Assembly (NCBI RefSeq): GCF_900182705.1 | Contig: NZ_FXTP01000001.1 | Span: 496,001 to 560,000, forward strand | Length of the DNA: 64,000 nucleotides | Direction of reading: 5' to 3' | From: Gracilimonas mengyeensis | GTDB lineage: Bacteria; Bacteroidota; Rhodothermia; Balneolales; Balneolaceae | Part shown: positions 4,998 through 45,002 of the stretch, one piece after another | Numbering within the stretch: the stretch's first letter is position 1 | Layout of the letters: every line of letters starts with the position of its first letter | Notes under the pieces: generated by a model | What the model was told of the DNA's origin: nothing | The model's input: only the letters and a program-made list of their open reading frames with translations | Databases searched by the model: none | Translations under genes and position numbers: made by a program

Positions 4998-5322
4998 CGG
5001 TAAGTAATTTAATTTTCTCTTAACTCAAATAATTTTCCTATATAATAGAACAAAATTATCAAACTTCATTACCGTCTTTATAGAAGCAAAAAATGAAGTA
5101 AAATCAGCATCACATGCTAGTCAGAAGTTGAATTTCATTATTAAGTGTCGTATTTACACTTAGATGATTTATCCAGCATAAGTGACTGAAAGTATGGCTT
5201 GTAGCCAGTCATCTGTAACCATTAGTATCCTGTTGTAAAGATTCACCTCCTACTTGGGTATTGAATATTATGCGGTTTACCGGGATAGAAAAACCAACCA
5301 CTATTCTAAAATTGGAGAAAAC
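4998..5322. other. Promoter region of the endo-arabinanase gene
   Basis: This 325-bp A/T-rich region separates the divergent YciI-like gene and the GH43 gene. It contains the 19-bp candidate AraR operator at 5143-5161. The reading frame of the GH43 gene extends upstream to a TTG at 5254, but the signal peptide shows that translation starts at 5323. A GGAG sequence at 5313-5316 provides a reasonable ribosome binding site about 6 bp before that ATG. Confidence 0.5.
5143..5161. promoter_or_regulatory. Candidate AraR operator ahead of the GH43 endo-arabinanase
   Basis: The sequence aagtgtcgtatttacactt is a palindrome with perfect 6-bp arms and a 7-bp spacer. The same arrangement, with small changes, occurs at 12196, 24716, 32571, 36528 and 44984, always between genes and ahead of arabinose-related genes. 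It lies 162 bp before the GH43 start codon. The link to AraR is inferred from distribution and from the AraR gene in this window. Confidence 0.65.
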
Positions 5323-6399
5323 ATGAGATACCTAAACAAAACTACTAACTATTTATTGGCTGCGGTGTTTGCATTGGCTCTTTCGATGCAAGTACAGGCT
5401 CAATGGGTGGATATTCAAGTTCACGATCCCGTTATGATTGAAGCTGAAGGCCAGTATTATATTTTTAATACGGGGCAGGGAATTGCAATGTGGTCCTCCC
5501 CTGACCTGGAAAACTGGGATTATGAAGGTCCTATCTTTCCGGAAGCTCCTGAATGGACCTATGATGTAAACCCAGAGTTCGAAAATCATATTTGGGCTCC
5601 TGACATCACCAAGCATGATGGTACGTATTACCTATTCTATTCAGTATCCGCTTTTGGGCGCAATCGTTCGGCCATTGCTGTTGCCACTAATTCTACACTT
5701 GACAAAGATGATCCGGATTATGAGTGGGTTGATCACGGACCAGTGATTAAATCTGTACCGGGCCGCGATATGTGGAATGCTATTGACCCCAACATTGCTT
5801 ACGATGAAGAAGGTAATCCATGGATGAGTTTTGGTTCATTCTGGATGGGTTTAAAGATTTTCCGCCTGGATGAAAGCATGACCAAACCTTTGGAACCACA
5901 AACATGGCACACCATTGCTGCACGTCATCGTGACTGGACGCTGGACGAACGGGATGCCGGTGATGCCGCAAATCCTGAGCTGGATTACGATGAAATCTAT
6001 GATGAAGAAACCCTAGAAAAAAATAAGAACATGGGGAATGGCGCCATTGAAGCCCCCTTTATCTTCAAGAAAAACGGATACTACTACCTGTTTGCCTCCT
6101 GGGATCGTTGCTGCCGCGGCTTGGAAAGCTCTTATAAAGTAATTGTTGGCCGCGCCAAAGATATTACAGGACCTTACCTGGATATGGATGGCAACAAACT
6201 GAAGCATGGTGGCGGAACCATCATCGCCAAAGAAAATGAATTATGGGCTGCTGTGGGACACCCTGCCGCCTATACCTTTGATGGTACTGACTATTTGGTA
6301 GCTCATGCTTATGCTAAGAATGATGAAGGTCGGCCAAAACTAATTCTGGCTGAAATAACCTGGGATGAAAACGATTGGCCCAGCGTTACGCTGAAATAG
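5323..6399 (+). CDS. GH43 arabinan endo-1,5-alpha-L-arabinanase, exported
   Basis: This 358-residue protein has a signal peptide (1-27, ending VQAQ) and a five-bladed GH43 beta-propeller. The three expected acidic residues are D35 in VHDPVM (general base), D155 in AIDPN (pKa modulator) and E243 in AIEAPF (general acid). The WDRCCRG motif at 260-266 is typical of the endo-arabinanase branch (GH43 subfamilies 4-6), which cleaves internal alpha-1,5 bonds of pectic arabinan. The ATG at 5323 is chosen because it gives a proper signal peptide and has GGAG just upstream. A candidate AraR operator precedes it, and a strong terminator follows at 6429. It is monocistronic and converges with araA. Confidence 0.9.
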   Translation: MRYLNKTTNYLLAAVFALALSMQVQAQWVDIQVHDPVMIEAEGQYYIFNTGQGIAMWSSPDLENWDYEGPIFPEAPEWTYDVNPEFENHIWAPDITKHDGTYYLFYSVSAFGRNRSAIAVATNSTLDKDDPDYEWVDHGPVIKSVPGRDMWNAIDPNIAYDEEGNPWMSFGSFWMGLKIFRLDESMTKPLEPQTWHTIAARHRDWTLDERDAGDAANPELDYDEIYDEETLEKNKNMGNGAIEAPFIFKKNGYYYLFASWDRCCRGLESSYKVIVGRAKDITGPYLDMDGNKLKHGGGTIIAKENELWAAVGHPAAYTFDGTDYLVAHAYAKNDEGRPKLILAEITWDENDWPSVTLK

Positions 6400-6428
6400 A
6401 TAAGCTAAAAATTCAGACAAAAATAAAA

Positions 6429-6465
6429 CGGTCAGACGCTACCAAGTTCGTCTGACCGTTTTTTT
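6429..6465. terminator. Bidirectional rho-independent terminator between GH43 and araA
   Basis: The perfect 10-bp stem pairs CGGTCAGACG (6429-6438) with CGTCTGACCG (6449-6458) around a 10-nt loop. Four A residues precede the stem and seven T residues follow it, so the hairpin can end transcription from the plus-strand endo-arabinanase gene and from the minus-strand araA gene. This is the strongest terminator in the window and marks the end of the long minus-strand arabinose operon. Confidence 0.92.
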
Positions 6466-6517
6466 ATTTAACGGATATCTGAAAAGCAGATATCAGTAAA
6501 CTTTTTGTTACCGGTGA

Positions 6518-8020
6518 TTACCGGATTCCTTTCATACTGCTGTAGTACACTTCATTATTTCGCAGATCACTTTTGAAGGTACGCAGATCGGTATCCTCAT
6601 CAATAACGAGACACTCAATGCCTAACATTTCAGCTAAATCAATGATGTGCTGAACCGACAGTGCTTGTGAATATGCGGTGTGATGGGCTCCACCTGCCAA
6701 TATCCAGGCAGTAGCTGCAACTTTTAAGTCAGGCTTGGCATCCCAAAGCACACGAGCTACCGGTAAATTGGGCAGGTCAGGTGTTTCTTCCGCTTCCAGT
6801 TTATTCACAATCAAGCGATACCGGTTGCCCATATCCATAAGAGCTACGTTGATAGCATCTCCAGGCTCACCGTTAAAAACCAGGCGTGCAGGATCAGCTT
6901 TACCACCAATTGACAATGGATGAACTTCCAAAGAAGCTTTTTCATTGCTGATAGATGGACAAATTTCCAGCATGTGTGCGCCCAATACCCGTTCTTTTCC
7001 GGGATTAAAGTGATAGGTGTAATCTTCCATAAAGGAAGTCCCACCGGTCTTGCCTTGCGCCATTACCTTGGCCACTCTTACAAGCGCTGCAGTCTTCCAG
7101 TCGCCTTCACCGGCAAAGCCATAACCTTGTTCCATCAGGCGCTGTACGCCAAGTCCGGGCAGCTGTACCAGTCCGTGCAAATCTTCAAAATTAGTAGTAA
7201 AGGCTTTGAACCCACCCTCATCTAAAAATGCTTTGATTCCCAGCTCAATTCTGGCTGCTTCTTTAATGGAATTTTGGAAATCCTCATCGGATTGATCGGC
7301 ATCGGAAATAGTGTATGTTTCCTTGTACTCTGCAAGCAGTGCTTCCAGGTCTTCCTCAGAAACGGCATTTACGTATTCTACCAAATCGCCTACGCCAAAA
7401 GCTCTCACATCCATTCCAAACTGGAATTGAGCGGTCACTTTATCGCCTTCAGTAACGGCAACATTACGCATGTTGTCTCCAAATCGGGCTACTTTCAGGT
7501 GTTCCAGTTCGTGCTTGCCAATAGCGGCACGAATCCAGGTATCCAGCTCTTCGGTTATTTCGGCATCTTCCCAATGGCCTACAATTACCTTTCGGTCAAG
7601 GCCCATCAAGGCATTGATAAACCCAAACTCACGTCCGCCGTGGGCTGACTGATTTAGGTTCATAAAGTCCATGTCAATATCATCCCAGGGAATGTCCCGG
7701 TTGAATTGAGTGTGCAGGTGTACAAAAGGCTTATTCAGAGTTTTGAGGCCTGCAATCCACATTTTGGCCGGCGAAAAGGTATGCATCCACATGATCAGGC
7801 CAATGCATTCATTGGCATTATTGGCCTCTTGCATCAGTCCATGGATTTCATCTGAAGTGGTTAACACCGATTTAAACACGATGTCAGCCGGGGCTTCATT
7901 TTTCCGGGCCAGGTTTGTTGCTACTTCTTTTGAGTGTTCTTCAACTTGGTTCAGGGCTTCTTCACCATAAAGGTGTTGACTACCGGTTACAAACCAAATC
8001 TCTTTTTGTGATGTGTTCAT
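6518..8020 (-). CDS. araA: L-arabinose isomerase
   Basis: This 500-residue cytosolic enzyme has the usual length for AraA and is similar along its whole length. It converts L-arabinose to L-ribulose with a divalent metal such as Mn2+. The metal-binding residues of the family can be seen in context: a Glu in GEGDWKTAA, a Glu in SFMEDYTYHF, a His in GAHMLEICPS and a His in GGAHHTAYS. The N-terminal KEIWFVTGSQHLYG is characteristic. It is the last gene of the araB-araD-symporter-araA group; its start codon lies 16 bp after the symporter stop. A strong terminator follows. Confidence 0.98.
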   Translation of the reverse strand: MNTSQKEIWFVTGSQHLYGEEALNQVEEHSKEVATNLARKNEAPADIVFKSVLTTSDEIHGLMQEANNANECIGLIMWMHTFSPAKMWIAGLKTLNKPFVHLHTQFNRDIPWDDIDMDFMNLNQSAHGGREFGFINALMGLDRKVIVGHWEDAEITEELDTWIRAAIGKHELEHLKVARFGDNMRNVAVTEGDKVTAQFQFGMDVRAFGVGDLVEYVNAVSEEDLEALLAEYKETYTISDADQSDEDFQNSIKEAARIELGIKAFLDEGGFKAFTTNFEDLHGLVQLPGLGVQRLMEQGYGFAGEGDWKTAALVRVAKVMAQGKTGGTSFMEDYTYHFNPGKERVLGAHMLEICPSISNEKASLEVHPLSIGGKADPARLVFNGEPGDAINVALMDMGNRYRLIVNKLEAEETPDLPNLPVARVLWDAKPDLKVAATAWILAGGAHHTAYSQALSVQHIIDLAEMLGIECLVIDEDTDLRTFKSDLRNNEVYYSSMKGIR

Positions 8021-8036
8021 AATAGAATTTTAGTGA

Positions 8037-9683
8037 TTACCAGAAATAGATGTAGATTCCAAAAGTGACCAATATAATCACTATGGTGTGGAAGACATCC
8101 CATTTATCCCAGCTATTTTTCGTGTTATCCATACTTTCTTTTGTGGCGGTCCAGAATGTGAGGCCGGATAGTCGTTCATCACTCATTGGTTTGGTTGCCA
8201 ATGAAATGATCACAATTACCGCAATACAGATGATGAAAAGAGCAATCTCGTAGTACAACCAGTTAGGTGCCAAGATCACTTCATACATTAATGAGTTTGG
8301 ATCGATACTGCTTTCAAACACTTTCATGGCCAGTCTCAACATTCCCAGCACGAAACCCACAATCAAGCCCCATAGACCTGCTGCGGCTGTAGTTCGTTTC
8401 CAGAATACACCCAGTAAAAATACCGAAGCAATTCCCGGAGCCAACAGTGACTGTACGTCTTGCAAATATTCGTACAACACACTACCTATGCTCTTCATAA
8501 TCGGGATCCAAAGTATACCCAAAATTACAATAACTGCGGTAGCAATTCGACCTACGATTACATAGTGTCGCTGCGATTCTTCAGGTCGATATTTTTGATA
8601 GAAATCAACCGTAAACAACATGGCTGATGAGTTAAACAAGGAGGCCAGCGAACTCATCAATGCGGCCACCAGGCCACCAACTACAAGGCCTTTAAGCCCC
8701 ATAGGTAGTATTTGCCGGACCATAGCTGCAAAAGCTGCATCCGAGCTTACGAGTTCAATTTTACCCTGCTGGGCAAGAGCAAAAGCAATCATCCCGGGTA
8801 CAAGAAAAAGGAATACCGGGGTCATTTTTAGATAAGCCCCAAAGATGGCTCCTTTACGCCCTTGCTTCTCATTTCCTGAGAGTACCCTCTGCACGATATA
8901 TTGATCCGTACACCAGTACCAAAAACCAATAATAGCCGATCCAATTAACACGCCGGGCCATGGAAAGTCAGGATCACTCAAAGACCGGAACATACTGTTC
9001 ATAGAATCTCCCTGTGGAGTAGTTTCAGCAGCGGTTATCTGCATCAATTCTCCCCAGCCACCTAATTCATAAAGGCCGAAGAATACAATAGCAGCAGAAC
9101 CCAATAGCAACACCGGCGTTTGAATAACCGATGTGTACAGTACCGATTTCATCCCGCCAAAAATAGTATACAAACCAGTTATAATTACAAGGCCTATAGC
9201 ACCAACCCAGAAAAAGTCGATGCCCAACCAAGTCTCGATTCCAAAGATCTCCTTAAATACAACACCACCGGCATATACCGTTACAGCTACTTTCGTAAGC
9301 ACATAACTCACAATCGAAATAACCGACAGGAACGAACGTGCTTGCGGGTTAAACCTCTTCTCAAGGAATTCAGGCATCGTTGTTACCTTACTTCTTGAAT
9401 AGAAAGGCACAAACACCCAACCAAGAATCAATATTATCCAAGCCTGAAGCTCCCAGTGAGCCATAGCCATACCACTTTCAGCTCCGGCCCCGGCAAGTCC
9501 TACCAAGTGCTCAGAACCAATATTTGATGCAAAAATAGAAGCACCAATAGCTACCCATCCGGCATTTCTACCTGCTAAAAAGTAGTCGTCCGTGGTTTCG
9601 TCCTTCATCCGGATTACCCAGACGACAATTCCAATCAACACTGCAAAAAACAGCCCCAGTACAATCCAATCTAATAACGCCAT
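8037..9683 (-). CDS. Sodium:solute symporter (SSS/SGLT family), probable L-arabinose transporter
   Basis: This 548-residue inner-membrane protein has about 14 hydrophobic segments with the SGLT topology. Signature stretches include GRNAGW near residue 40, the broken first core helix (ASNIGSEHLVGLAGAGAESG, about 52-71), the WELQAW motif of helix 2, and FWYWCTDQYIVQRVL in the middle, which contains residues equivalent to the sugar-site Asn/Tyr of vSGLT. It should couple sodium entry to sugar uptake. The position where vSGLT has a sugar-contacting Gln after NISAE is His here, as in animal SGLTs. Its place between araD and araA makes L-arabinose the likely substrate, although galactose or a short oligosaccharide cannot be excluded. 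Confidence 0.88.
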   Translation of the reverse strand: MALLDWIVLGLFFAVLIGIVVWVIRMKDETTDDYFLAGRNAGWVAIGASIFASNIGSEHLVGLAGAGAESGMAMAHWELQAWIILILGWVFVPFYSRSKVTTMPEFLEKRFNPQARSFLSVISIVSYVLTKVAVTVYAGGVVFKEIFGIETWLGIDFFWVGAIGLVIITGLYTIFGGMKSVLYTSVIQTPVLLLGSAAIVFFGLYELGGWGELMQITAAETTPQGDSMNSMFRSLSDPDFPWPGVLIGSAIIGFWYWCTDQYIVQRVLSGNEKQGRKGAIFGAYLKMTPVFLFLVPGMIAFALAQQGKIELVSSDAAFAAMVRQILPMGLKGLVVGGLVAALMSSLASLFNSSAMLFTVDFYQKYRPEESQRHYVIVGRIATAVIVILGILWIPIMKSIGSVLYEYLQDVQSLLAPGIASVFLLGVFWKRTTAAAGLWGLIVGFVLGMLRLAMKVFESSIDPNSLMYEVILAPNWLYYEIALFIICIAVIVIISLATKPMSDERLSGLTFWTATKESMDNTKNSWDKWDVFHTIVIILVTFGIYIYFW

Positions 9684-9730
9684 TTATTCCTTAATTATAG
9701 TTCTTATTTACTTTTATATATGCTATCCAC

Positions 9731-10432
9731 TTATTCCTGTCCATAATAGGAATCGGAACCGTGCTTACGCTCCCAATGCTTGCGGATCAGGCTATCCTTG
9801 AGGCGCGGAGCCTCCGGGTTTATTTGTAAAGCCAGGTAGGCCATTTTGGCTACTTCTTCGAGTACGGCACTGTTATACACTGCCTTATCAACCGTTTTAC
9901 CCCAGGTAAAGGGGGCGTGGTTACCCAGAAGCACCATCTCCACTTCTTCGTAAGAAAGGTCACGTTCCTCAAATACTTTAAGTATCTGATTGCCAGTTTC
10001 ATGTTCGTAATTGCCCTGGATCATTTCGTCATCCATAGGCGGGGCACACGGAATATCAGTGGTTAGATGATCGGCATGCGTGGTGCCCATGATGGGAATA
10101 TCACGCTGGCTTTGAGCCCAGGCTGTGCCATAGGTAGAATGGGTGTGAACAACACCGCCAATATTCTCCCAGTTTTTGTACAAAACAGCATGTGTTTTGG
10201 TATCAGAAGAAGGACGCATCTCCCCTTCCACTATATTGTTATCAAAATCTACAATAACAATATCCTCAGGCTTTAGATCGTCGTAGGGTACGCCGCTTGG
10301 CTTGATACCAAAAACCTCTTTCTCCCGGTCAACAGCACTGGCATTACCAAAAGTAAAAAGTACCAGACCCAGTTCAGGAAGGCGCATATTCGCTTCATAG
10401 ACCGATTGTTTGAGTTCTTTAAAGTCACTCAT
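9731..10432 (-). CDS. araD: L-ribulose-5-phosphate 4-epimerase
   Basis: This 233-residue class II aldolase-like enzyme converts L-ribulose 5-phosphate to D-xylulose 5-phosphate by retro-aldol cleavage and re-closure. The zinc ligands are visible: H96 and H98 in VVHTHSTYG and H172 in LLGNHAPFTWG. The phosphate-binding TFGNASAVD (about 27-35) and KPSGVPY (44-50) stretches are also present. It starts only 4 bp after the araB stop codon, so the two are co-translated, and the symporter gene follows after 47 bp. The length equals that of the E. coli enzyme within a few residues. Confidence 0.97.
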   Translation of the reverse strand: MSDFKELKQSVYEANMRLPELGLVLFTFGNASAVDREKEVFGIKPSGVPYDDLKPEDIVIVDFDNNIVEGEMRPSSDTKTHAVLYKNWENIGGVVHTHSTYGTAWAQSQRDIPIMGTTHADHLTTDIPCAPPMDDEMIQGNYEHETGNQILKVFEERDLSYEEVEMVLLGNHAPFTWGKTVDKAVYNSAVLEEVAKMAYLALQINPEAPRLKDSLIRKHWERKHGSDSYYGQE

Positions 10433-10436
10433 TCTA

Positions 10437-12113
10437 TCACTCCGCTTTTTTCATGATTCGTTCTTCAATGATTTCTCCGAAAGAGGAATAATCTTGATAC
10501 ATCTTTTGGTAGATCTCTACTTTATCAGCTTCTGGCTCATACACTTTCTCGAAACCGCTGGCGAGATTTTCTTTGGCTTCTTCTACCGATGAATACATTC
10601 CTGCAGCGGTTGCGGCAAATACAGAAGCACCCAGCGCACAAGTCTGCTCGGATTTAGAAATTCGGATGGGCATATTCAGCACGTTGGCGAGGGTCTGCAT
10701 TACAAAGGGTGATTTTTTGGATACCCCTCCCATTCCAATTACGCCTTCAATACGGATGCCTTCATCAATAAAGCGATCCACAATTTTCTTGGAGCCAAAG
10801 CAAGTTGCTTCAACCAATGCTTTAAAAATCTTGGGAGCATCGCTACTAAGGTCAAGCCCTTCAATAGCTCCTTTCAGCAATTGATTGGCATCGGGAGTAC
10901 GACGACCATTCATCCAATCTAATGCGATTACACCGGTATCGATATCCTCAATCTCTTGGGCAGCGTTGGTGAGATTGGCAATCAGCTTATCCTCGGCTTC
11001 TTCAATCAACGCTTCTTTTTGATCATCGTTAAGGTGGGCACTGCCGTTGATTATTTCCTTGTAAGGACCAAGCAGCATGTTTTTAAACCAGGCATAGATA
11101 TCGCCAAAAGCAGATTGTCCGGCTTCAAGACCAATCATTCCCGGAATCACAGAACCGTCTACTTGCCCGCAGATGCCCTGCACCAGGTTATCCCCTACAT
11201 CGCCTTCAGGGGCAACCAGCATATCGCAAGTTGAAGTCCCCATCACGCGAACCAGTTGATAAGGCTCAATACGTCCCCCAACGGCTCCCATATGGGCATC
11301 AAATGCACCCACGCCAATAATTACGTCTTCGGGGAGATCCAGTTTTTCGGCCCATTCTTTAGAAATAGTACCTGCTGGTTTATCAGAAGTGTAGGTATCT
11401 TCATAGAGTCGGTCGCGAAGTCCTCCAAGGAGCGGGTCCAGCTGGGTGAGAAAGTCTTCGCTTGGTAGTCCGCCAAATTCTTCATGCCACATGGCTTTAT
11501 GGCCGGCAGCACAGCGACTGCGTTTCATTTCGTGCACATCATTTTTGCCGGTTAGTTCGTAAGGAATCCAGTCGCAGAGCTCAACCCATGAATATGCGTT
11601 TTCACGAATTTCTTCGTCTTCACGTAGCACGTGGAGAATCTTGGCCCAAAACCACTCAGAGGAGTAAATACCTCCTACATATTTGGTGTAATCTACACCG
11701 CCCCAGCTTCGGGCCAGTTTGTTGATCTCATCTGATTCTTTAATGGCCGTATGATCTTTCCACAAAACAAACATGGCATTGGGATTCTCTTCGAATCCCT
11801 CTTTCATGGCAAGAGGAGTTCCTTCTTTATCAACAGCTACTGGAGTAGAACCGGTACTGTCTACAGAAATAGCTTTGATATTTTTCCGCTCTTCTGCATC
11901 GAGTGTTTGAACTACCTCCTTAAGGGTGTCTTCCAAACCTTCCAGGTAATCCAATGGATGATGCCGGAAACGGTTTTCATCAGGATTCGAGTATTTACCC
12001 TGCTTCCACCTTTTATAGTACCATACAGATTCCGCTATTTCTTCCCCGTTTTCACTAACCAAAACGGATCTTACGGAATCGGTTCCGTAATCAACTCCAA
12101 TTACATATTCCAT
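10437..12113 (-). CDS. araB: Ribulokinase
   Basis: This 558-residue FGGY-family kinase phosphorylates L-ribulose at O5 using ATP. The N-terminal phosphate loop GVDYGTDSVRSVLV (5-18) and the SVDSTGSTPV segment (about 105-114) are typical of AraB, and the C-terminal FGGY domain has GGVSKKSPF (about 457-465) and the ATP-binding CALGASVFAA. Its length matches AraB (about 560) rather than the shorter xylulokinases. It is the first gene of the araBDA group. A 19-bp palindrome lies 83 bp upstream, between it and araR, so the catabolic genes probably have their own arabinose-controlled promoter in addition to any read-through. Confidence 0.97.
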   Translation of the reverse strand: MEYVIGVDYGTDSVRSVLVSENGEEIAESVWYYKRWKQGKYSNPDENRFRHHPLDYLEGLEDTLKEVVQTLDAEERKNIKAISVDSTGSTPVAVDKEGTPLAMKEGFEENPNAMFVLWKDHTAIKESDEINKLARSWGGVDYTKYVGGIYSSEWFWAKILHVLREDEEIRENAYSWVELCDWIPYELTGKNDVHEMKRSRCAAGHKAMWHEEFGGLPSEDFLTQLDPLLGGLRDRLYEDTYTSDKPAGTISKEWAEKLDLPEDVIIGVGAFDAHMGAVGGRIEPYQLVRVMGTSTCDMLVAPEGDVGDNLVQGICGQVDGSVIPGMIGLEAGQSAFGDIYAWFKNMLLGPYKEIINGSAHLNDDQKEALIEEAEDKLIANLTNAAQEIEDIDTGVIALDWMNGRRTPDANQLLKGAIEGLDLSSDAPKIFKALVEATCFGSKKIVDRFIDEGIRIEGVIGMGGVSKKSPFVMQTLANVLNMPIRISKSEQTCALGASVFAATAAGMYSSVEEAKENLASGFEKVYEPEADKVEIYQKMYQDYSSFGEIIEERIMKKAE

Positions 12114-12195: not shown

Positions 12196-12214
12196 AAGTG
12201 TTAGATTAACACTT
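12196..12214. promoter_or_regulatory. Candidate AraR operator ahead of araB
   Basis: The sequence aagtgttagattaacactt is a perfect palindrome with 8-bp arms around a 3-bp centre. It is the most symmetrical copy of the six-member family. It lies 83 bp upstream of the araB start and directly downstream of the araR stop, the expected place for the operator of the araB-araD-symporter-araA transcript. Confidence 0.75.
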
Positions 12215-12300: not shown

Positions 12301-13008
12301 TTAAGAGCGTAAAGGTTTGAAAACAAGACTATCGCCGTTGGTTACCTTTTCTGTGTATTTATCCTGATCAAACTTGTACAGAAAAGCACCTTTCTTTGAG
12401 TACTTTTTCTGTTTTTCGTCTGTTTTGATTAATACATCCATAGAAAGTATCCGTCTTCTGAAATTACGCTTATCAAGGCGGGTATCATAAATGCCTTCAT
12501 AGAGTTTTTGAAGTTCGGGTAGCGTAAATTTTTCAGGCAATAGCTCAAACCCAACGGGTTGGTGAGAAGCTTTATATCTCAATCGCTTCAATGCTGCTTT
12601 AACCATCTCCTGGTGGTCAAAAATTAAATCGGGAATTTCATTGATGGGAAACCACGAAGCGCTGTGTTGCTCTACCAGTTCTTTGTCGTGAGTGTGCACA
12701 TCAATGAGCGCGTAGTATGCCACAGAAATGGTCCGTTCTACGGGATCCCGGTCTATTTCGCCATAGGCATGAAGCTGTTCAAGATAAATATTTCGTAAAC
12801 CTGTCAGATTGTTGAGGATTCTTTCTGCTGACTCGTTCAGGCTTTCATCTTTTCTGAGAAAGCCACCCATCAATGACCAATTCCCCTTCTCGGGTTCAAA
12901 ATCACGCTTAATCAAGAGTAATTTTAGTTCGTTACGGTCAAATCCGAAGATGATACAGTCTAGAGCAACAAGTAAATGATCATGACTTTTATAGTGATCA
13001 ATTTTCAT
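12301..13008 (-). CDS. araR: Nudix-related transcriptional regulator of arabinose utilisation (AraR, Bacteroidota type)
   Basis: This 235-residue protein has an N-terminal Nudix fold (about 10-140) and a C-terminal winged helix (about 160-230, FTLPELQKLYEGIYD then NFRRRIL). In the Nudix box, the G49-X5-E55-X7-R63 frame is kept, but the three metal-binding Glu residues that should follow are I64, N67 and L68, so hydrolysis is very unlikely and the pocket probably senses a ligand. This architecture is that of the Nudix-type AraR/NrtR group; a Bacteroides thetaiotaomicron member is known to be an arabinose-responsive repressor. The gene sits immediately upstream of araB, with a palindromic operator between them. 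It probably controls the six palindromes listed here. Confidence 0.9.
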   Translation of the reverse strand: MKIDHYKSHDHLLVALDCIIFGFDRNELKLLLIKRDFEPEKGNWSLMGGFLRKDESLNESAERILNNLTGLRNIYLEQLHAYGEIDRDPVERTISVAYYALIDVHTHDKELVEQHSASWFPINEIPDLIFDHQEMVKAALKRLRYKASHQPVGFELLPEKFTLPELQKLYEGIYDTRLDKRNFRRRILSMDVLIKTDEKQKKYSKKGAFLYKFDQDKYTEKVTNGDSLVFKPLRS

Positions 13009-13119: not shown

Positions 13120-14712
13120 TCATTCAACACTTATTACAAGCACGGAATGTTTAGGTATTTCAAAGGTTAATATTCCATCTTCCAGCTCTGCATCGTTAAA
13201 TGCTACTGGCTTTACATTCTCGGTATTATCAAAAGTATTAATAGCGTCAACACTACTGGCTGTTAACAGGCGACCGGAATTTCGTACAATGGTGCTCACA
13301 TTTTTTCCACGTATGTCAATGCTAACTTCTTGCGACTCAGTTGGATGCGTATTGCTTACTGTGAAGTGAAGTACACCTTCCTCATCTTCAGAGGCAGTAG
13401 TGCTAATAATCGGAATTCCGGGTTCATCTCTGCGGATATCAAATCGTCTTACCACGCTTTCATCCCCTTCTCTAACAAATCGTTCCGTATCGCTATGTGA
13501 AGGAAGCAGCATAGAATTCTGATGCACTTTATACATGTGGAACACGTGATATGTTGGAGTTAGTACCATTTCATCATCATCAGTCAGAATCATAGCCTGC
13601 AGTACATTCACCATTTGCGCGATGTTAGCCAAACGAACACGATCAGCGTGCGAATTCATGATGTCCAGACTAATGGAAGCAATCAGGGCATCACGCATGG
13701 AATTTTGCTGCTCAAGGAAACCAGGGTTGGTACCGGCCAGAGGATCAGTCCAAATACCCCACTCATCAACCGCAAGGTTTACTCTTTTGTTTGGATCATA
13801 TTTGTCCATTCTGTTAGAATGTTCTGTGATGAATTCATCCAAGAGAAATGCAGCTTTTAAGCCTTTGTAGTACATGTCTACATCAAAATCTGTAGAAGGT
13901 CCTTTGTTGCCCCAGCCTGGTCCCGGAATGGTGTAATAATGCAATGAAATTGCATCCATCATCCAGCCTGCTTCGCGCATCAGGGTTTCAGTCCAGTCGT
14001 AACGATCATCTGACCAACCACTGGCAATCTTGTAGATTTCATTGCCGCTGTAGTTTTTGGCAAAAGTCTGGAACTGTCGGTAAAGGTCAGCGTAATAATC
14101 GGCTGTCATGTTACCACCGCATCCCCAGCTTTCGTTTCCGATACCGAAGAATTTAATATCCCAGGGTTCTTCCCGGCCATTCTCGCGGCGCAGGTTGGCA
14201 AGGTCGCTGTCGCCATCATAAGTCATGTACTCAATCCAGTCTTTCATTTCAGAAGGAGTACCACTACCTACGTTAGCAGAAATGTAAGGCTCGGTGTCAA
14301 GCAGTTCGGCAAGGCGCAAAAACTCGTGCGTACCAAAGCTGTTGTCTTCCTCTACCATGCCCCAGTGGGTATTGATGCGAACAGGGCGTTCGTCACGGGG
14401 ACCAATGCCATCACGCCAGTGATATTCATCTGCAAAACAACCACCAGGCCAGCGTACATTCGGGATATCCAGCTCTTGCAGGGCTTCCAGTACGTCGGTA
14501 CGATATCCTTCTTTATTGGGGATATCAGAATCGGGACCTACCCATATCCCGCCATAAATGCCACGGCCCAGGTGTTCGGCAAACTGGCCGTAAATGTGTT
14601 CATTGATTTTATATTCTGCCTGATCGGCATTTACTATAATATTGGTTTGCGCAAATACCGTAGCACTTAACGGCAAAAACGCCACGGCAATGAGTACAAG
14701 TAGTTTCTTCAT
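13120..14712 (-). CDS. GH51 alpha-L-arabinofuranosidase (copy nearest araR), exported
   Basis: This 530-residue enzyme has a signal peptide (1-22, ending VFAQ), a TIM-barrel catalytic domain and a C-terminal beta-sandwich from about residue 400. The acid/base is E194 in GIGNESWG and the nucleophile is E317 in VDEWGIW, as in clan GH-A GH51 enzymes. WPGGCFADEYHW (88-99) is the conserved stretch near the active site. It removes terminal non-reducing alpha-L-arabinofuranosyl residues, probably in the periplasm. It differs clearly from the other GH51 copy at 18006: Trp-Gly-Cys-Gly follows the acid/base here, Met-Asp-Gly-His there, so the two likely have different preferences for arabinan or arabinoxylan linkages. 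It lies 38 bp after the mutarotase stop. Confidence 0.95.
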   Translation of the reverse strand: MKKLLVLIAVAFLPLSATVFAQTNIIVNADQAEYKINEHIYGQFAEHLGRGIYGGIWVGPDSDIPNKEGYRTDVLEALQELDIPNVRWPGGCFADEYHWRDGIGPRDERPVRINTHWGMVEEDNSFGTHEFLRLAELLDTEPYISANVGSGTPSEMKDWIEYMTYDGDSDLANLRRENGREEPWDIKFFGIGNESWGCGGNMTADYYADLYRQFQTFAKNYSGNEIYKIASGWSDDRYDWTETLMREAGWMMDAISLHYYTIPGPGWGNKGPSTDFDVDMYYKGLKAAFLLDEFITEHSNRMDKYDPNKRVNLAVDEWGIWTDPLAGTNPGFLEQQNSMRDALIASISLDIMNSHADRVRLANIAQMVNVLQAMILTDDDEMVLTPTYHVFHMYKVHQNSMLLPSHSDTERFVREGDESVVRRFDIRRDEPGIPIISTTASEDEEGVLHFTVSNTHPTESQEVSIDIRGKNVSTIVRNSGRLLTASSVDAINTFDNTENVKPVAFNDAELEDGILTFEIPKHSVLVISVE

Positions 14713-14750
14713 GATATGAGTTTTTTAGTCGTCGTTAGGTTTAGAATAAT

Positions 14751-19796: not shown

Positions 19797-19823
19797 CTTT
19801 TATCCATGAGTAAAGGCTACTAC

Positions 19824-32570: not shown

Positions 32571-32589
32571 TGGTGTCTATTTGACACTT
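32571..32589. promoter_or_regulatory. Candidate AraR operator ahead of susC2
   Basis: The sequence tggtgtctatttgacactt contains GTGTC-N5-GACAC as a perfect palindrome and differs from the susC1 copy only in the spacer. It lies 256 bp before the susC2 start, the same distance as the copy before susC1. Confidence 0.65.
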
Positions 32590-34826: not shown

Positions 34827-36431
34827 TTATTTGATCAACATCATTTTCCGGGTTTGCACCAAACTCCCGGCTTGGAGCCGATAAATATACATACCGCTGG
34901 ATAAACTTGAAGCATCAAAACTGGCTTGATGTGCTCCAGCTGATTGTCTTGTATTTACCAAGGAAGCCACTTCCCTTCCCAACATATCAAACACTTTTAA
35001 TGAAACTTCACTGCTCACCGGTAACTGATAACTAATAACTGTAGAAGGGTTAAACGGGTTTGGATAATTTTGCTTAAGCTCAAAAGAAGTCGGCTTTCCC
35101 TGTTCCTTCTCATTGGAAACCGGCAAGTAATCGGCTACAAGAGTAGTTACCGTTCCAGAGGGCATACTAATCGTAAATTGTCGTCCTGAAACTTCTACAT
35201 CTTCCAGTTGCTCTACATTTTGTGATACACTACTACGGTACTGCTCCAAGGTCATAGGTGTACCATCCTCTACCTCAAAAGTAAGTTCTTTGTCTCCGGG
35301 TTCATCATTGATGGCTACAATAACCAGTTTATCGCCATCTTTATACGCTGTGGCATACACCCGGATCAGCCCCCTGCCAGCCGGCCCAAAAGAATGTACT
35401 CGCTCAAAACCAGGACGGATAAATCGTGAAAAGTGAGAAAAAGCATATCCTCGTTTTAGAATTTCACCGTCGGTTGTGCCTTCATCCCCATCTCCGATAA
35501 AGGAATAATAACGCTGCAGGTACCACCAGATGTAAGCATTCCAGTTGTTTCTCATAGAGCTATTAATGGATACCAGCATATCAATGGTTTCTTCCCAGAT
35601 TTCAGCCTCACTATACGAACTCCAGGAATCGGATCCTGAATTACCTGTTCCGAGGTTCATCAGGTATTCGGTCATCCAGATTTCCTTACCTTTTTCTTCG
35701 GCCAAAGGATAACGGGCATTTCCTCCCCCATAAATATGTCCGCCTAAAATATCCAGGTTAGCAGCAGCCAGTGAATCATTTAGAATAGGATTAGACATCT
35801 CCCTTCTAAACTGAAAAGACTCCGGGGCAATAACCCTGGTAGCTTCAATGGAGCTGGCATGATCACGCATAAAATTGGTCATCTCCTCTGGCGTCCAATC
35901 ACAGGACTCATAGCTTACCTCTATATCCGGTTCATTTTGAATAGAGATGCCATAAAGGGGCGCATCATTTTCTTCCATATATATTGCAAAACGGTTCAGA
36001 AAATCCGCATAGTCGGCGTAGGCGTCTTCTCGCAAGTGCCCGCCTACCAGATCGCCATTGGTTTTCATGTCGGACGGCGGGCTCCAGGGAGACGCTATAA
36101 TCTTAATTCCCATTTCATGAGCTTTTTGAGCGGTTGCCAGATTGCTACTCCATTGATTTTCGTTTGGTGGTATACGAATACGCAGAATAGATAAACCAAG
36201 CTGACCTTCCTCCATCCCAAAAGCCTTCTCCACCTCTTCTTCCGACAAATCAGGACGCCACCCTACAATATTGGCGGCTCCAAATCCCCGGATGAGCTGG
36301 GCTGTACTATCCATGTACACAACCACATCTGCATTTGATTGCGCCGAAGCATTTGAAGGATAAAAACAAAAAGTAAACAGACTGAAAAAAGTTAAAGCAA
36401 GTGTTAACAGTTTATATAGACGAGTGATCAT
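34827..36431 (-). CDS. GH30 xylanase-type enzyme with type IX secretion tail (copy 1)
   Basis: This 534-residue protein has a signal peptide (about 1-30), a GH30 TIM barrel with its side beta-domain (about 36-440), and a C-terminal T9SS sorting domain (about 455-534). The acid/base is E167 in SIQNEPD and the nucleophile is E255 in WMTEYLM. The fold start (IRGFGAANI) and IWWYLQRYYS are typical of the xylanase branch (GH30 subfamily 8-like), which cuts glucuronoxylan or arabinoxylan chains. The tail predicts secretion and surface anchoring or release. It is divergent to the GH43 gene at 36595, with an operator between them, and followed by the GDSL esterase. Confidence 0.88.
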   Translation of the reverse strand: MITRLYKLLTLALTFFSLFTFCFYPSNASAQSNADVVVYMDSTAQLIRGFGAANIVGWRPDLSEEEVEKAFGMEEGQLGLSILRIRIPPNENQWSSNLATAQKAHEMGIKIIASPWSPPSDMKTNGDLVGGHLREDAYADYADFLNRFAIYMEENDAPLYGISIQNEPDIEVSYESCDWTPEEMTNFMRDHASSIEATRVIAPESFQFRREMSNPILNDSLAAANLDILGGHIYGGGNARYPLAEEKGKEIWMTEYLMNLGTGNSGSDSWSSYSEAEIWEETIDMLVSINSSMRNNWNAYIWWYLQRYYSFIGDGDEGTTDGEILKRGYAFSHFSRFIRPGFERVHSFGPAGRGLIRVYATAYKDGDKLVIVAINDEPGDKELTFEVEDGTPMTLEQYRSSVSQNVEQLEDVEVSGRQFTISMPSGTVTTLVADYLPVSNEKEQGKPTSFELKQNYPNPFNPSTVISYQLPVSSEVSLKVFDMLGREVASLVNTRQSAGAHQASFDASSLSSGMYIYRLQAGSLVQTRKMMLIK

Positions 36432-36527: not shown

Positions 36528-36546
36528 AATTGTAATTTATACACTT
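36528..36546. promoter_or_regulatory. Candidate AraR operator between divergent GH30 and GH43 genes
   Basis: The sequence aattgtaatttatacactt matches AAGTGT-N7-ACACTT with one change in the left arm. It lies 48 bp before the plus-strand GH43 start and 97 bp before the minus-strand GH30 start, so one site could govern both. Confidence 0.55.
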
Positions 36547-36594: not shown

Positions 36595-38217
36595 ATGGAA
36601 CGATTAGTAAAACTTTTCATCTGCTTAATTATTTTAATGGGGGTCTCCTATACGGGCTTTGCACAAGAACATGTTCCCGGCGAAAATCCTATCATACGTG
36701 ATGTTTTTACGGCCGATCCCGCGCCACTGGTTTATCAGGATACGGTGTTTCTTTATGTTGGACATGATATAGCCACCGGGGATGAGATGTTCAATATTGA
36801 CGAATGGCTGGTCTACTCCTCTACCGATATGAAAAACTGGGAAGCCCACGGTCCGGCCATGCAAGCGTTGGACTTCGATTGGTCGGAAGGTAATGCCTGG
36901 GCTTCTCAGGTTATAGAAAAAAATGGGAAATTCTGGTTTTATACTACCACCATTGATAAGAATACCGAAGGAGATGCCATTGGTGTGGCGGTTTCCGATA
37001 AGCCTACCGGCCCTTTTAAGGATGCCATTGGAAAACCGCTGGTGGTAGATTCCATGACTCCTACTCCAGAAGATCCCTACGATTGGGACGACATCGATCC
37101 CACTGCTTTCACAGATGATAACGGTACTACCTGGATTGCCTGGGGCAACCTCCATCTGTACCTGGCCAAGATGAAGCCCAATATGACTGAAATTGATGGA
37201 GAAATACAGGAACTCTATCTACCCAATTTTACCGAAGGTCCGTGGATACATAAACGTGAAGATATGTATTATCTGAGCTATGCCTGTTTTGCCCATCAGA
37301 ATATGTGGGAAAAAATATGCTATGCTACCGCACCCGAAATCACAGGCCCCTGGACCTATCGCGGCATTATCACCGACCGAACAGAGCATAGCTACACCAT
37401 ACATCCCGCTATTATTGAATTTGGAGATCAGTGGTATTTCTTTTATCACACGGGGCAATTAACCATTGGGGATGAATCCGGAGCCATTGGCCGGCGTGCG
37501 GTTTCTATTGAGTATTTATACTATAATGAAGATGGAACCATAAAGCCCATCGAAAAAACAATGGAGGCGTTAAGTATCCCGCCAAATAAGCCTTCCGAAT
37601 ATGTAGCTCCGGTTTATAATCCTGATGATTCATTGGTTACCGTTGATACTGACATAAAGGTGGTTCAAAATGTTGCCACAGCAGCTACAAGCTGGCCAAA
37701 TAAAACGGTTCTGCAAACTGCCGACAATCCATACCAATCCGGCACTAACTCAACAAGCTTCAATGCGGAAAATGGAGTTAGCAGCATGGGACAGACCTTC
37801 ACGCCCGATTCTGACTTCAAACTCGAAGAAATAGGCATTTACGCCGGGGATGGATTTGGTACCGGGGCAAACAGCAAGGTTAATATTTCCCTGTACCAAC
37901 TTGAAATGGACACTGATACTACCTACACCATTACCGATAATTTATTAGGGGCAAAAGAAAACCTTTATATCAATTACAAGCCGCAGGCTCCGGGAGTACT
38001 TCATTTTGAATTACCAGAGGATCGTCGGCCTGTGCTGGAAGCCGGCCAAAGCTATGTATTTGAACTTCAAGGCGTATCGGGTTCTGCTCCGGTATTATGG
38101 CGGCACAGTCAGGGAGATATCTATTCAGAAGGTGCTGCCTGGATGAACCGTAAGCTGATGTCGGACGAAGAAGGCAATTCTTACAGTGATTTCATCATGG
38201 CTCTTTATGGCAATTGA
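36595..38217 (+). CDS. GH43 glycosidase with an unassigned C-terminal beta-sandwich domain
   Basis: This 540-residue exported enzyme has a signal peptide (1-24, ending GFAQ), a GH43 propeller (about 28-335) and a second domain (about 350-540). The catalytic residues are D41 in FTADPAP, D168 in DDIDPTAF and E214 in TEGPWIH. The propeller resembles arabinoxylan arabinofuranohydrolase-type GH43 proteins. The second domain begins with short linker residues and contains SSMGQTFTPDSDFKLEEIGIY and LEAGQSYVFELQ; I do not recognise it as CBM6, and it resembles beta-sandwich modules added to secreted enzymes. There is no T9SS tail. AGGA at 36584-36587 gives a ribosome binding site. It converges with the BNR_4 gene. 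Confidence 0.85.
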   Translation: MERLVKLFICLIILMGVSYTGFAQEHVPGENPIIRDVFTADPAPLVYQDTVFLYVGHDIATGDEMFNIDEWLVYSSTDMKNWEAHGPAMQALDFDWSEGNAWASQVIEKNGKFWFYTTTIDKNTEGDAIGVAVSDKPTGPFKDAIGKPLVVDSMTPTPEDPYDWDDIDPTAFTDDNGTTWIAWGNLHLYLAKMKPNMTEIDGEIQELYLPNFTEGPWIHKREDMYYLSYACFAHQNMWEKICYATAPEITGPWTYRGIITDRTEHSYTIHPAIIEFGDQWYFFYHTGQLTIGDESGAIGRRAVSIEYLYYNEDGTIKPIEKTMEALSIPPNKPSEYVAPVYNPDDSLVTVDTDIKVVQNVATAATSWPNKTVLQTADNPYQSGTNSTSFNAENGVSSMGQTFTPDSDFKLEEIGIYAGDGFGTGANSKVNISLYQLEMDTDTTYTITDNLLGAKENLYINYKPQAPGVLHFELPEDRRPVLEAGQSYVFELQGVSGSAPVLWRHSQGDIYSEGAAWMNRKLMSDEEGNSYSDFIMALYGN

Positions 38218-40909: not shown

Positions 40910-42532
40910 TTACTTAATCAACATCATTTTACGTGTCTCCACGAAAGAACCGGCCTGCAGACGGTAAATGTACATGCCGCTGGAGAGGTTTGAAGCATCA
41001 AAACGTGCCTGATGCGCTCCGGCTGCCTGTCGGCCATTCACCAAGTCGGCCACTTCACGTCCCAGCATATCATACACCTTAAGTGAAACTTCACTGCTGG
41101 CAGGTAGCTGATACTTAATGGTAGTACTTGGGTTGAAAGGGTTGGGATAGTTCTGCTCCAACTGATAAGCATTAGGGGCTTCAACCAACTGCTCATTTGA
41201 TACTACAATGTCAGAAGACACAAAAGTGGTGATACTGTTGGCAGGCAAGGTTGTCATGAAGCGGTTATCTGTAGCTTCAATACTTTCCAACTCTTCTATA
41301 TCCTCCGTTTCACTGGTTCGGTATTGGTTAAATAGTTGAGCATCTGCACCATCTACAATAAAGTTGATATCTTTGTCAGCATTTTCACCATTAACGGCAA
41401 CGATAACCAATTTTGAGGAAGCAGAGTCAATAAAAGCAGTGGCGGTAACCCTCATCAAGCCTCGTCCTACGGGCTCATCATTATGTAACCGGATATACCC
41501 CGGGCGGATAAACTTGGAGTATTGTCCCATAACATAGCCACGTTTGGTGATGGTGCCACTTCTTGCATCATCCTCGTAACTGTCGGTATCGGCATCTACT
41601 CCATCATGAATGGGACTGTAATATCTTTTTATCTGCCACCAGATGTATGCATTCCAGTTTGCTTTCATAACCTGCTGGATTTCATCACCAACCCCAAGAG
41701 CATCCGGCCATATGTTGGCAGAACGGTCGCTGGTGGTATAATGCTCAGTCATCCAGATTTCTTTACCCTTTTCTTCCGCCAACGGATAGGCAGATAAGCC
41801 GCCGCCATAAATATGGCCACCAATAATGTCGGTGTGGGCTAATGCGAGGGAATCATTCAAGATTGGATCGGAATAATTTCGTCTGAACTGAAAAGATTCG
41901 GGTGCAATAATGCGGCTGTTGATTGAAGGGGCATGATCTCTCAGGAAAGTCACAATTTCTTCAGGTTCCCATTCTGTCCAGTCATCAGCATAGTCCGGTT
42001 CGTTTTGTACCGATATGCCATATAAAGGTACTCCGCGTTCCTCCATGTAGACATTAAAGGCTTCAAGGTGCTCTGCATACTCTGCATACTTTTCGGGATC
42101 TACTTTACGCTGAGGACTACCATCCGCTTCGTCATAATAAATAGCCATTGATTCAGGCGGATTCCATGGAGCGGCCCAAATCAGGGCACCCAGTTCATGA
42201 GCACGTCTTGCGGTTTCAACCTGATTGCCGTTGTCCCAGTCGTTAGGATTTGGGCTGATTCTAAGGCGTAAAATATTGAACCCAAGCTGACCTTCGTCAT
42301 TGCCATAGGCCATCTCTATTTCTTCCATGGTTGGATCGTTTCCGTACCAGTCCACGATATTGGCTGCTCCAAATCCTCTGATGAACTGTGCCGTACTGTC
42401 TACATAAACAACGACATCTCCATCACCGGACTGAGCAAAAATTGTAGTAGATGATAAAACCACTACTGATACCGCAAATAAAAACCGGAACAGCTGTGGA
42501 TATTTTCTAAATAGTAACTTTTTAAAAGGCAT
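40910..42532 (-). CDS. GH30 xylanase-type enzyme with type IX secretion tail (copy 2)
   Basis: This 540-residue secreted protein has a signal peptide (about 1-34), a GH30 barrel plus side domain (about 40-445) and a T9SS tail (about 460-540). The acid/base is E178 in SVQNEPD and the nucleophile is E263 in WMTEHYT. It is a clear paralogue of the GH30 at 34827; both share IRGFGAANI, APESFQFRR and HIYGGG stretches. It differs in the loop after strand 3 (DEADGSPQRKVDPEKYAE), which may change which xylan decoration is recognised. It lies 91 bp after the GH43-CBM6 gene and is probably transcribed with it, ending at the terminator 40858-40882. Confidence 0.88.
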   Translation of the reverse strand: MPFKKLLFRKYPQLFRFLFAVSVVVLSSTTIFAQSGDGDVVVYVDSTAQFIRGFGAANIVDWYGNDPTMEEIEMAYGNDEGQLGFNILRLRISPNPNDWDNGNQVETARRAHELGALIWAAPWNPPESMAIYYDEADGSPQRKVDPEKYAEYAEHLEAFNVYMEERGVPLYGISVQNEPDYADDWTEWEPEEIVTFLRDHAPSINSRIIAPESFQFRRNYSDPILNDSLALAHTDIIGGHIYGGGLSAYPLAEEKGKEIWMTEHYTTSDRSANIWPDALGVGDEIQQVMKANWNAYIWWQIKRYYSPIHDGVDADTDSYEDDARSGTITKRGYVMGQYSKFIRPGYIRLHNDEPVGRGLMRVTATAFIDSASSKLVIVAVNGENADKDINFIVDGADAQLFNQYRTSETEDIEELESIEATDNRFMTTLPANSITTFVSSDIVVSNEQLVEAPNAYQLEQNYPNPFNPSTTIKYQLPASSEVSLKVYDMLGREVADLVNGRQAAGAHQARFDASNLSSGMYIYRLQAGSFVETRKMMLIK

Positions 42533-42623: not shown

Positions 42624-44897
42624 CTATTTTATCAACATCATTTTACGTGTTTGTATAAAGGAACCTGCTTTCAGCCGGTAAATGTACATGCCGCTGGAGA
42701 GGTTTGAAGCATCAAACCGGGCTTGATGACTACCAGCCCCTTGTCGATGATTTACAAGTTCAGCAACCTCCCGACCCAACATATCATACACCTTGAGCGA
42801 GACCATGCTGGTTTTGGGTAACTGATAGCTGATTTCGGTAGTTGGATTGAAAGGATTTGGATAATTTTGCTGTAGTTTATATCTGTCCGGGGTTCCTGAA
42901 AAAGTATCTTCATTTGATGTAGCCAGCGGTACTCTCTTGGGAGTGAACCGGAACTGCTTCAATCGGAATAATTCTTCTCCTTCATTTCCGGTAAAATACA
43001 AATATACGTCGTGCCGGCCGCTAATGGAGTCCACCTGGGCAGTGAATTCAATCCAGGTATCCCAGCTGCCGGTGTTTTCAATCGTCTGCTCGGCAATTTT
43101 CTGGCCCGTACCGATGGAATCCAGCCATACTTCAATTGTTCCTCCATTGCTGGCGCTGGAGCCTTCAATTTTTAATTCGTCAGGCGTGCGCTGATAATCA
43201 AAACCGGCTGAAGGTGGGGTTTCGTCTCCAAATTCCACACCGGCAAAAAGCGCCCAGTCGCCATTATGAATCTCTCCAAGGTATTCCGACTCTTTTTCTA
43301 CTCCCGAATGATTAACAGGATGCCGGGCATCAATAAAGGAGTAGGCATCGCGGTATATATAGAGATCAAAAAAGGCCTCATTTCCGTACACATACAAGCC
43401 CTGCTGGTTACCTGTAAAGCTGTTAAAGTCTGTTTGTTCAACATTTAATTCGGTAGCATCAATGCGATTGCCGACCTGAAACCAGGTATCGCCATCTTCA
43501 CTAAAAAAACCGTACATGTCATGTTCATCACGTTCAAGCTTCAGCCATAAAGTGGAACCAATGGTGTTTTCTTCCTCATATTCACGGCCATTAAAGCTGA
43601 ATCGAACCACCTTTTCTCCATCTGTATTGGTCGAACTTACCAGCTTCACCTGCAGGTCTTCAGGACCATTGAGAATCCACAAACCAGCTTCATGCAAACG
43701 AGATGTTGCCTCAAAATCAAGTCGGGTAATCAGGCTATATTGATGCTCCCCATCATTTTTAATAACCGTGGTTGAGGACCGGCTGCTGGGAGACAAACGA
43801 AGCCAGCCGGGGCGCTCGCTAAGGGAATGATAAGAATCAGGAGTTCTACCCAGGAAAGACCATTCCGGATCCAGGGTTTCTGAATTAAACATATCCGACT
43901 TGGGAACCATCCAGGGCGTTCCTCCACTTGGAAGGTCAGGAGCATCCGTCGCTGAATCTTGCGGATATTGAAATACAGGGAATCCTTCTTCATCATACGT
44001 AATTTCAAGCAGTAAGCCCTGCCGGCCCTGGGTTACCCAGTCTTGATGGTAACTGTGCCCAATCACCCAGCTCGTTCCGTCATCCAGCTGCACTGCCGGT
44101 GAGATGTGATTTGGCGTATTGAAATGGTAGCGGGTTCCATATTGCATACCTCCGTCTTTAATCGTCCAGTCTTCCGGATCATCACTGAGCGTATCACTTT
44201 TCATCACATATTGTACGCCAGCCAAATGCTGGGCCACGCTATAATAGTACCAACCGTCTCTTTTCCACATCACAGGCCCTTCAGCCCATCCATAAGGATT
44301 ATCTTCGGCATCAGGATTCATCCAGGTTAGATCCAAAATTTCACCGGTTGGCTGTCCCTCATCATTTAACTCCACAATGTGATTATTTTCACGGCCGTGT
44401 TTGGCCAAGAGGTACCACTTGCCATATTCTTCATCAATAAAAATTGAATTATCCACACCAAGTGCAGATATACCATCAGGTACTTCAACTCGTACCGGCT
44501 CGCTCCAAGGGCCTTCGGGCTCATCCGCTTTTACATAATACATGCTACCGCCTCCCCGACCAAAAAAGTGCCAGTAGCTGTCGTTATACCAAACCATATG
44601 GCCACCCCATATTCCGCCTCCTGCATTATCTCCATATACCGACCAGGTAGGAGAAACCGGTTGGGCAATGACTTCCCAATGCACTAAGTCGGTAGAACGG
44701 TAAATTTTCGGAGTTGGATTAAATGATGATCCTGAGGTATAAAAATAATCACCGATTTTGGTAAGTGTAGGATCGGGATGATCCCCGGGTATTATCGGAT
44801 TTACGTAGGTGTCAAAAGAAGGAGACTGTGCGTGGACTTCAAAGGACAAAAAAGCTAAGATTCCTGCGCAAACGATGAGTAAGATTTTCTTTATCAT
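42624..44897 (-). CDS. GH43 xylosidase/arabinofuranosidase with beta-sandwich, CBM6-like module and T9SS tail
   Basis: This 757-residue secreted protein has a signal peptide (1-24), a GH43 propeller (about 30-335), a concanavalin-like C2 domain (about 345-520), a CBM6-like module (about 545-665, including [20 protein letters not shown] and DVYLYFTG) and a T9SS sorting tail (about 680-757). The catalytic residues are D42 in HPDPTL, D149 in LGVDNSIF and E206 in WAEGPVM. The build is that of large xylan or arabinoxylan debranching enzymes exposed at the cell surface. Its 3' tail DNA is nearly the same as that of the next gene, GH30 at 40910. It is divergent from the GH43 at 45087, sharing an operator region. 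Confidence 0.88.
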
Positions 44898-44953
44898 ATC
44901 ATTAATTCTTATTCCGGTAATACAATAACCAATGGAAGTATAAAAAAATTTAA

Positions 44954-44961
44954 AAGCGCTT
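44954..44961. promoter_or_regulatory. AAGCGCTT palindrome between divergent GH43 genes
   Basis: The exact palindrome AAGCGCTT, in the context TAAAAGCGCTTCCT, lies 22 bp from the AraR-type site at 44984. It is the third perfect copy in the window. Confidence 0.45.
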
Positions 44962-44983
44962 CCTTTATTTTGTTGCCTTTATA

Positions 44984-45002
44984 AAATGTAATTTTTACAC
45001 TT
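44984..45002. promoter_or_regulatory. Candidate AraR operator between divergent GH43 genes
   Basis: The sequence aaatgtaatttttacactt matches AAGTGT-N7-ACACTT with one change in the left arm. It lies 84 bp before the GH43 start at 45087 and 86 bp before the GH43 start at 44897, so it can control the long plus-strand operon and the minus-strand GH43-GH30 pair together. Confidence 0.6.

Follow-up and report, generated by a model that had tools for sequence, protein, structure and literature searches.

Predicted operators of a Nudix-type AraR repressor at arabinose, arabinan and arabinoxylan genes of Gracilimonas mengyeensis

We analysed a 64,000-nucleotide stretch of the Gracilimonas mengyeensis genome (contig NZ_FXTP01000001.1, positions 496,001 to 560,000 of the forward strand; hereafter the window), in which the 19-bp palindrome AAGTGT-N7-ACACTT lies 5' of arabinose, SusCD and glycoside hydrolase (GH) genes. 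These boxes are very likely the operators of the adjacent AraR, a repressor of the Nudix/NrtR family. This assignment draws on the sites themselves and on where they lie, on the finding that across related genomes they depend on araR being present, and on the sugar-contact residues, which are conserved in the regulator. Binding, release by L-arabinose and repression are predicted by analogy with work on the AraR of Bacteroides thetaiotaomicron (BtAraR). Judged by its predicted operators, the AraR regulon is real, of a known kind and wider than an earlier, sequence-only reading of the window had seen.

That reading had located six intergenic boxes with at most two changes each, and all six were recovered when mismatches to the pattern were counted (0, 0, 1, 1, 2 and 2). 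They precede the endo-arabinanase gene, the araB-araD-symporter-araA genes, both susCD operons and two divergent glycosidase promoters, as had been proposed. The boxes at 5143–5161, 92 bp 5' of a GH43 endo-arabinanase open reading frame (ORF; 5254–6399, plus strand) related to AbnA, and at 12196–12214, in the araR/araB intergenic region 82 bp 5' of araB, match without mismatch. The latter, beside araR, is indeed the most symmetrical box of the window (8 of 9 outer pairs). One mismatch each is present at 36528–36546, between a GH30-type gene (34827–36431, minus strand) and a divergent GH43 gene (36595–38217, plus strand), and at 44984–45002, between a GH43-CBM6 gene (42624–44897, minus strand) and a GH43 gene (45039–46688, plus strand). 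With two mismatches, the boxes at 24716–24734 and 32571–32589 lie 255 bp 5' of susC1 and susC2, respectively. The core GTGT-N7-ACAC is unbroken in these two and exact also at 5143 and 12196; the boxes at 36528 and 44984 carry a variant, TTGT or ATGT. For the genes other than susC, the distance from box to start codon is 36 to 96 bp. Since the leaders of susC1 and susC2 are 76% identical, their paralogous boxes are not independent evidence. Two further matches with two mismatches were absent from the earlier reading: a weak candidate at 48578–48596, intergenic and 5' of a GH97 gene (48631–50565, plus strand), and a match at 35176 within coding sequence. Across 46 oriented box windows, no TAnnTTTG or TTTG promoter element was seen at a constant spacing from the box.

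The 6,774 intergenic bases of the window hold four sites with at most one mismatch, whereas 2,000 dinucleotide shuffles gave 0.023 on average and never more than 2; with up to two mismatches, there were seven intergenic sites versus a mean of 0.37 and a maximum of 4. When three mismatches were allowed, the window total of 28 was at chance level (28.7 expected). Across the genome, exact matches (RAGTGT-N7-ACACTT) numbered five, versus zero or one, depending on the strand, for the reversed pattern, a control that is itself palindromic and perhaps not neutral. Because loose matches occur at chance level and the reversed pattern is the commoner one genome-wide at up to two and at up to one mismatch, the signal resides in exact matches and in placement; counts at two or three mismatches showed no signal over chance and were dropped as evidence.

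Thirteen sites with at most one mismatch were detected in the whole genome, four of them inside the window, a share whose binomial probability is post hoc because the window had been chosen by the earlier reader. Twelve of the 13 are intergenic, so the strict motif does not fall into coding regions as often as it falls at promoters. Ten are located within 450 bp of a carbohydrate gene, a count that is partly circular, as the gene panel was assembled from window genes and from the neighbours of boxes at other places in this genome. Outside the window, such boxes adjoin GH43 genes (contig C2, position 405906, i.e. C2:405906, as well as C14:120345 and C14:122597), a weaker GH43-like gene together with a DUF5695 gene (C13:172048), a GH127 gene (C13:33864) and a symporter/TonB-receptor pair (C2:80363). 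An eleventh carbohydrate-linked site, C14:16574, lies 569 bp 5' of a susC gene. A sequence model made from the six sites, with 150 of 2,354 first-look candidates scored, found the window sites and, in addition, C14:120343, C14:16573, C9:157166, C13:33862, C2:80363 and C7:196648, the last flanked by an ATP synthase gene and an unknown gene.

The distribution of the box follows that of the regulator. AraR was scored as present at a match of E 1e-100 or better, which holds for 14 of 77 genomes including that of the window (20 have any match at E 0.001); a genome with a remnant only (G006) and those with distant relatives only, such as G044, were scored as lacking it. At least one exact box was found in 12 of the 13 other AraR genomes versus 15 of the 63 genomes without AraR (Mann-Whitney, 1e-7). 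Median densities of sites with at most one mismatch were 2.56 per Mb in AraR genomes, the window's included, and 1.47 per Mb in the others. Chance exact sites in genomes without AraR come to roughly one for every few genomes. We then read sites one by one: all 74 of them in five of the 13 other AraR genomes, and 48 in five of the 63 without AraR, picked among the site-rich ones (G070 with 13 sites and three of the nine sites of G046 were left out). Intergenic positions accounted for 48 of the 74 sites versus 5 of the 48 (Fisher, 1e-9). Sites that were both intergenic and beside panel genes numbered 29 of 74 versus 1 of 48 (Fisher, 7e-7), a contrast that may partly reflect target genes missing in genomes without AraR. 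Boxes recur beside relatives of the window genes, namely the GH43 gene at 42624 (G003, G021 and G040), araB (G027, G028 and G040) and GH30 (G028). Among 80 named loci, mostly from Bacteroidota, 57 were countable, and 23 of these carry a box 5' of an ara, GH or Sus homologue; many are from Mucilaginibacter and hence not independent. At the same loci, 89 permuted half-sites reached at most 2, and the spacings from 3 to 11, with 7 excluded, gave no more than 1.

In G006, which belongs to the same genus, only the 3' half of araR and no exact box were found. The remnant (L111, 1234–1860) encodes AraR residues 110–235 fused to a C-terminal GH51 fragment, as if a deletion had joined the neighbours.

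The regulator gene araR (12301–13008, minus strand) encodes 235 amino acids with NUDIX (PF00293), NrtR_WHD (PF21906) and AraR_C (PF19368) domains, all above cut-offs; the genome has no second NrtR_WHD match. Its top match in the PDB is BtAraR (5bs6, E 7e-80), gap-free over residues 4–219, which bears out the earlier pointer to a known Bacteroides repressor; the operator core is shared as well (Chang et al. 2015, PMC4666351). The residues of BtAraR that form hydrogen bonds with L-arabinose, R34, R86 and H131, correspond to R35, R87 and H132 in the window AraR. In 93 AraR relatives the first two of these positions are always R, and that of H131 is H in 65 and Q in 28; relatives with Q are perhaps paralogues with another ligand. 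The DNA contacts K179, R180, N181 and K204 of BtAraR are identical in the window AraR; of the 93 relatives, 90 keep R at the position of R180 and 92 keep N at that of N181. The remaining contacts, BtAraR positions 184 and 205 (185 and 206 in the window AraR), are K and R in 46 of the 93 relatives and R and K in 34, a paired exchange. All six (K179, R180, N181, K184, K204 and R205) have been called conserved in all orthologues (PMC4666351). Given the R,K pair in 34 relatives, this conservation fails more widely than in the window AraR.

The Nudix signature of the window AraR is degenerate, with three glutamates lost (beyond the conserved G and E, R63 is followed by I, and the next two E are replaced by N and L); replacement of two or three of these glutamates is a trait of Bacteroidetes AraR proteins. 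An identity as NAD-responsive NrtR was rejected, since V90 occupies the position of BtAraR G89, which is arginine in NrtR; the NCBIfam NtrR model (158 bits, cut-off 400) and the arabinose genes as window targets also speak against it. araR is flanked by a GH51 gene and araB, and the same order is present at loci L019, L020 and L021. The four nearest named relatives (72–82%) come from a Rhodothermia metagenome-assembled genome (MAG), Fodinibius, an Aliifodinibius MAG and Rhodohalobacter; of these, Fodinibius and Rhodohalobacter belong to the Balneolota.

In the mechanism that we propose by analogy with BtAraR, an AraR dimer would occupy GTGT-N7-ACAC in each promoter as long as L-arabinose is absent. 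Bound AraR would repress the ara operon, the endo-arabinanase gene, the two SusCD import operons and the GH43, GH30 and GH127 enzymes. Breakdown of arabinan or arabinoxylan would free L-arabinose, which would enter the cell and fill the Nudix-like pocket; AraR loaded in this way would leave the DNA, and the gene set would be induced.

According to Pfam, the gene run behind box 12196 comprises araB, araD, a sodium/solute symporter gene and araA (6518–12113, minus strand). Behind box 24716 follow susC1, susD1, GH51, GH97, aldose epimerase and a further GH51 gene (13120–24460, minus strand), and araR, on the same strand and 3' of this run, may be the last gene of that operon. susC2, susD2 and a GH127 gene (25613–27571) form the run behind box 32571 (25613–32315, minus strand). 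A relative of GH30-type xylanases with a type IX secretion system tail is encoded at 40910–42532 (minus strand); in G040, a box lies 47 bp 5' of the homologous gene. The window protein had been considered as a new enzyme, which was rejected because NCBIfam (below the equivalog cut-off) and the PDB connect it to the GH30 glucuronoarabinoxylan xylanase XynC. Besides AraR, Pfam recognised no regulator among the 38 scanned ORFs of the window, two of which matched nothing, with overlapping or shorter ORFs outside the scan; to this extent, AraR is the sole regulator, as the sequence-only reading had it. Ahead of susC2, about 270 bp (32872–33138) are bounded by a 15-bp perfect inverted repeat (32872–32886 and 33124–33138), like a small non-autonomous mobile element. 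In addition, a 162-residue ORF at 61121–61609 (minus strand) gave a weak match to an addiction-module antitoxin family (PF09720, 24.3 bits, cut-off 23.3).

A second palindrome, the 8-mer AAGCGCTT, accompanies three of the six boxes. It is present at 24650–24657 (58 bp from box 24716), 32507–32514 (56 bp from box 32571) and 44954–44961 (22 bp from box 44984), against an expectation of 0.07 for the window's intergenic sequence; two of the three sites belong to the leaders of the susC paralogues. AAGCGCTT is the commonest palindromic 8-mer around 37 carbohydrate-linked box loci (10 loci; the next reaches 8). It was found near 3 of 46 other sites of AraR genomes and near none of the 48 from genomes lacking AraR; as most of these 48 are coding, they form an unmatched control. 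The exact 12-mer GGAAGCGCTTTT, read on the other strand of the AAGCGCTT sites, occurs eight times in the genome. Three of these are the window sites; the remaining five lie 5' of two TonB receptor genes, a PEPCK gene, a PaaA/PaaC-type gene and a PAS-domain gene. LacI-family sites typically have a central CG (PMC4052901), and the genome holds eight LacI-family genes above cut-off. AAGCGCTT may be a LacI-like input of carbon status.

Hybrid two-component or sigma genes were recognised in none of the 38 window ORFs; ECF/FecR pairs were not searched genome-wide. Y_Y_Y domains gave 11 matches in the genome, 10 of them above cut-off, with the closest some 38 kb ahead of the window; none lies on C2, C13 or C14, contigs that bear other boxes, and the domain alone is no proof of a hybrid two-component protein. 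The earlier view that the regulon does without hybrid two-component systems holds for the scanned window ORFs, not for the genome. Likewise, the proposal that one monosaccharide signal governs arabinan, arabinoxylan and beta-arabinofuranoside systems stands in its breadth, given the XynC relative and the GH127 gene, and is overstated in the single signal. With the LacI-like palindrome near three boxes and two-component-type proteins elsewhere, control probably goes beyond a single arabinose signal, and AraR is probably not the sole input.

Several observations weigh against AraR as the reader of all boxes or as the switch of all box-bearing genes. Genome-wide, the reversed pattern outnumbers the motif at up to two mismatches (233 versus 129) and at up to one (17 versus 13). 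The AraR-positive genome G036 has no exact box, and 26 of the 74 sites read in the five AraR genomes are coding. In the G. mengyeensis genome, the exact intergenic box at C9:157167 (L003, 1501–1519) lies at GcpE and PPIase genes with no arabinose gene adjoining, and the one-mismatch site C8:66939 is coding. Two of the six DNA contacts of BtAraR are exchanged in the window AraR (K184 to R, R205 to K). In B. thetaiotaomicron, moreover, loss of AraR left two tested arabinan genes at their steady-state level on arabinose and on glucose, and only the timing on arabinan shifted (Schwalm et al. 2016, PMC5061871). This timing-only effect weakens the case for AraR as the sole repressor of the polysaccharide operons.

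It also feeds a serious alternative, to which we give somewhat less than even chances: AraR binds the boxes, and the polysaccharide operons are switched mainly by a LacI-family protein that reads AAGCGCTT or by a two-component protein encoded at a distance, with AraR strictly repressing the ara operon only and tuning the rest. The LacI-family genes and Y_Y_Y proteins of the genome could supply such a switch, and AAGCGCTT is near three of the six window boxes and 10 of the 37 carbohydrate-linked loci. However, the other three window promoters have a box and no AAGCGCTT, and neither the 38 scanned window ORFs (no hybrid two-component gene) nor the box-bearing contigs C2, C13 and C14 (no Y_Y_Y match) gave a candidate for the two-component variant. 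That another protein reads the palindrome and AraR lies beside it by coincidence seems improbable to us. The two exchanged DNA contacts and the exact boxes of the 15 genomes without AraR would fit such a reader, but the crystallised BtAraR operator shares the core (PMC4666351), the same-genus genome with half an araR has no exact box, and 43 of the 48 sites read in genomes without AraR are coding, so that they are chance matches there. Chance as the source of the six window matches, consistent with the chance-level counts under loose matching, has next to no probability, as the shuffles, the permuted half-sites and the other spacings refute it for the strict sites. The boxes as operators of AraR remain our preferred explanation.

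The AraR-type operator and its regulon are mostly known already (PMC4666351). New are the extension to a Balneolota-like lineage of a regulator described from Bacteroides and Prevotella (Chang et al.), and a regulon that reaches arabinoxylan and GH127 genes. This gives a gene list for arabinan and arabinoxylan use, within and beyond the window, and offers a case where a polysaccharide programme may operate with no oligosaccharide sensor encoded nearby. More tentatively, and with doubts of our own, we suggest that in this lineage a cytoplasmic monosaccharide repressor replaced the oligosaccharide-sensing hybrid two-component activators of Bacteroides; free L-arabinose would then switch whole programmes for arabinan, arabinoxylan and beta-arabinofuranosides, and a LacI-type signal of carbon status would be their only gate. 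A literature search returned no paper on AraR in Balneolota, and a search on NrtR-family AraR and L-arabinose in 'Flavobacteri' nothing beyond Ravcheev et al. 2013 (PMC3878776).

The closest known system is BtAraR (BT0354), an NrtR-family protein whose crystallised operator is GTGT-N7-ACAC; AraR has been reported in 17 Bacteroides and 15 Prevotella species, with regulons that include GH51, GH43, GH97 and GH2 enzymes and SusCD systems (PMC4666351). The window AraR shares its domain build, sugar-contact residues, operator core and spacing, the araBDA target and the GH43, GH51, GH97 and SusCD targets (PMC4666351). Unlike the two tandem sites and the araR inside an araM-type operon in B. thetaiotaomicron, the window has single boxes and araR beside araB (PMC4666351). 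Its boxes extend to GH127 and GH30-type genes, which are not among the targets in the available text of PMC4666351, and the operator core is unchanged although two DNA-contact residues have changed.

The AraR of Bacillus subtilis belongs to a GntR/LacI-type family. As predicted for the window AraR, it is a single intracellular arabinose-sensing regulator over arabinan enzymes; it is termed a distinct AraR protein (PMC5061871). Closer in family is XylR of B. thetaiotaomicron (BT0791), an NrtR-family regulator of the xylose pathway (PMC4666351, PMC3878776) that is 33% identical to BtAraR (legend in PMC4666351). Three AraR loci of B. thetaiotaomicron are under dual control with hybrid two-component regulators (PMC4666351), whereas none such was seen among the scanned window ORFs. 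In the araR mutant, repression of the ara operon is lost (PMC5061871). The arrangement predicted for the window resembles that of AraR and BT0366, in which an arabinose-responsive repressor acts on arabinose and arabinan genes alongside a further global regulator (PMC5061871). The arabinan genes of B. thetaiotaomicron need an oligosaccharide-sensing activator (PMC5061871), whereas in the window no local counterpart was seen and the second site looks LacI-like.

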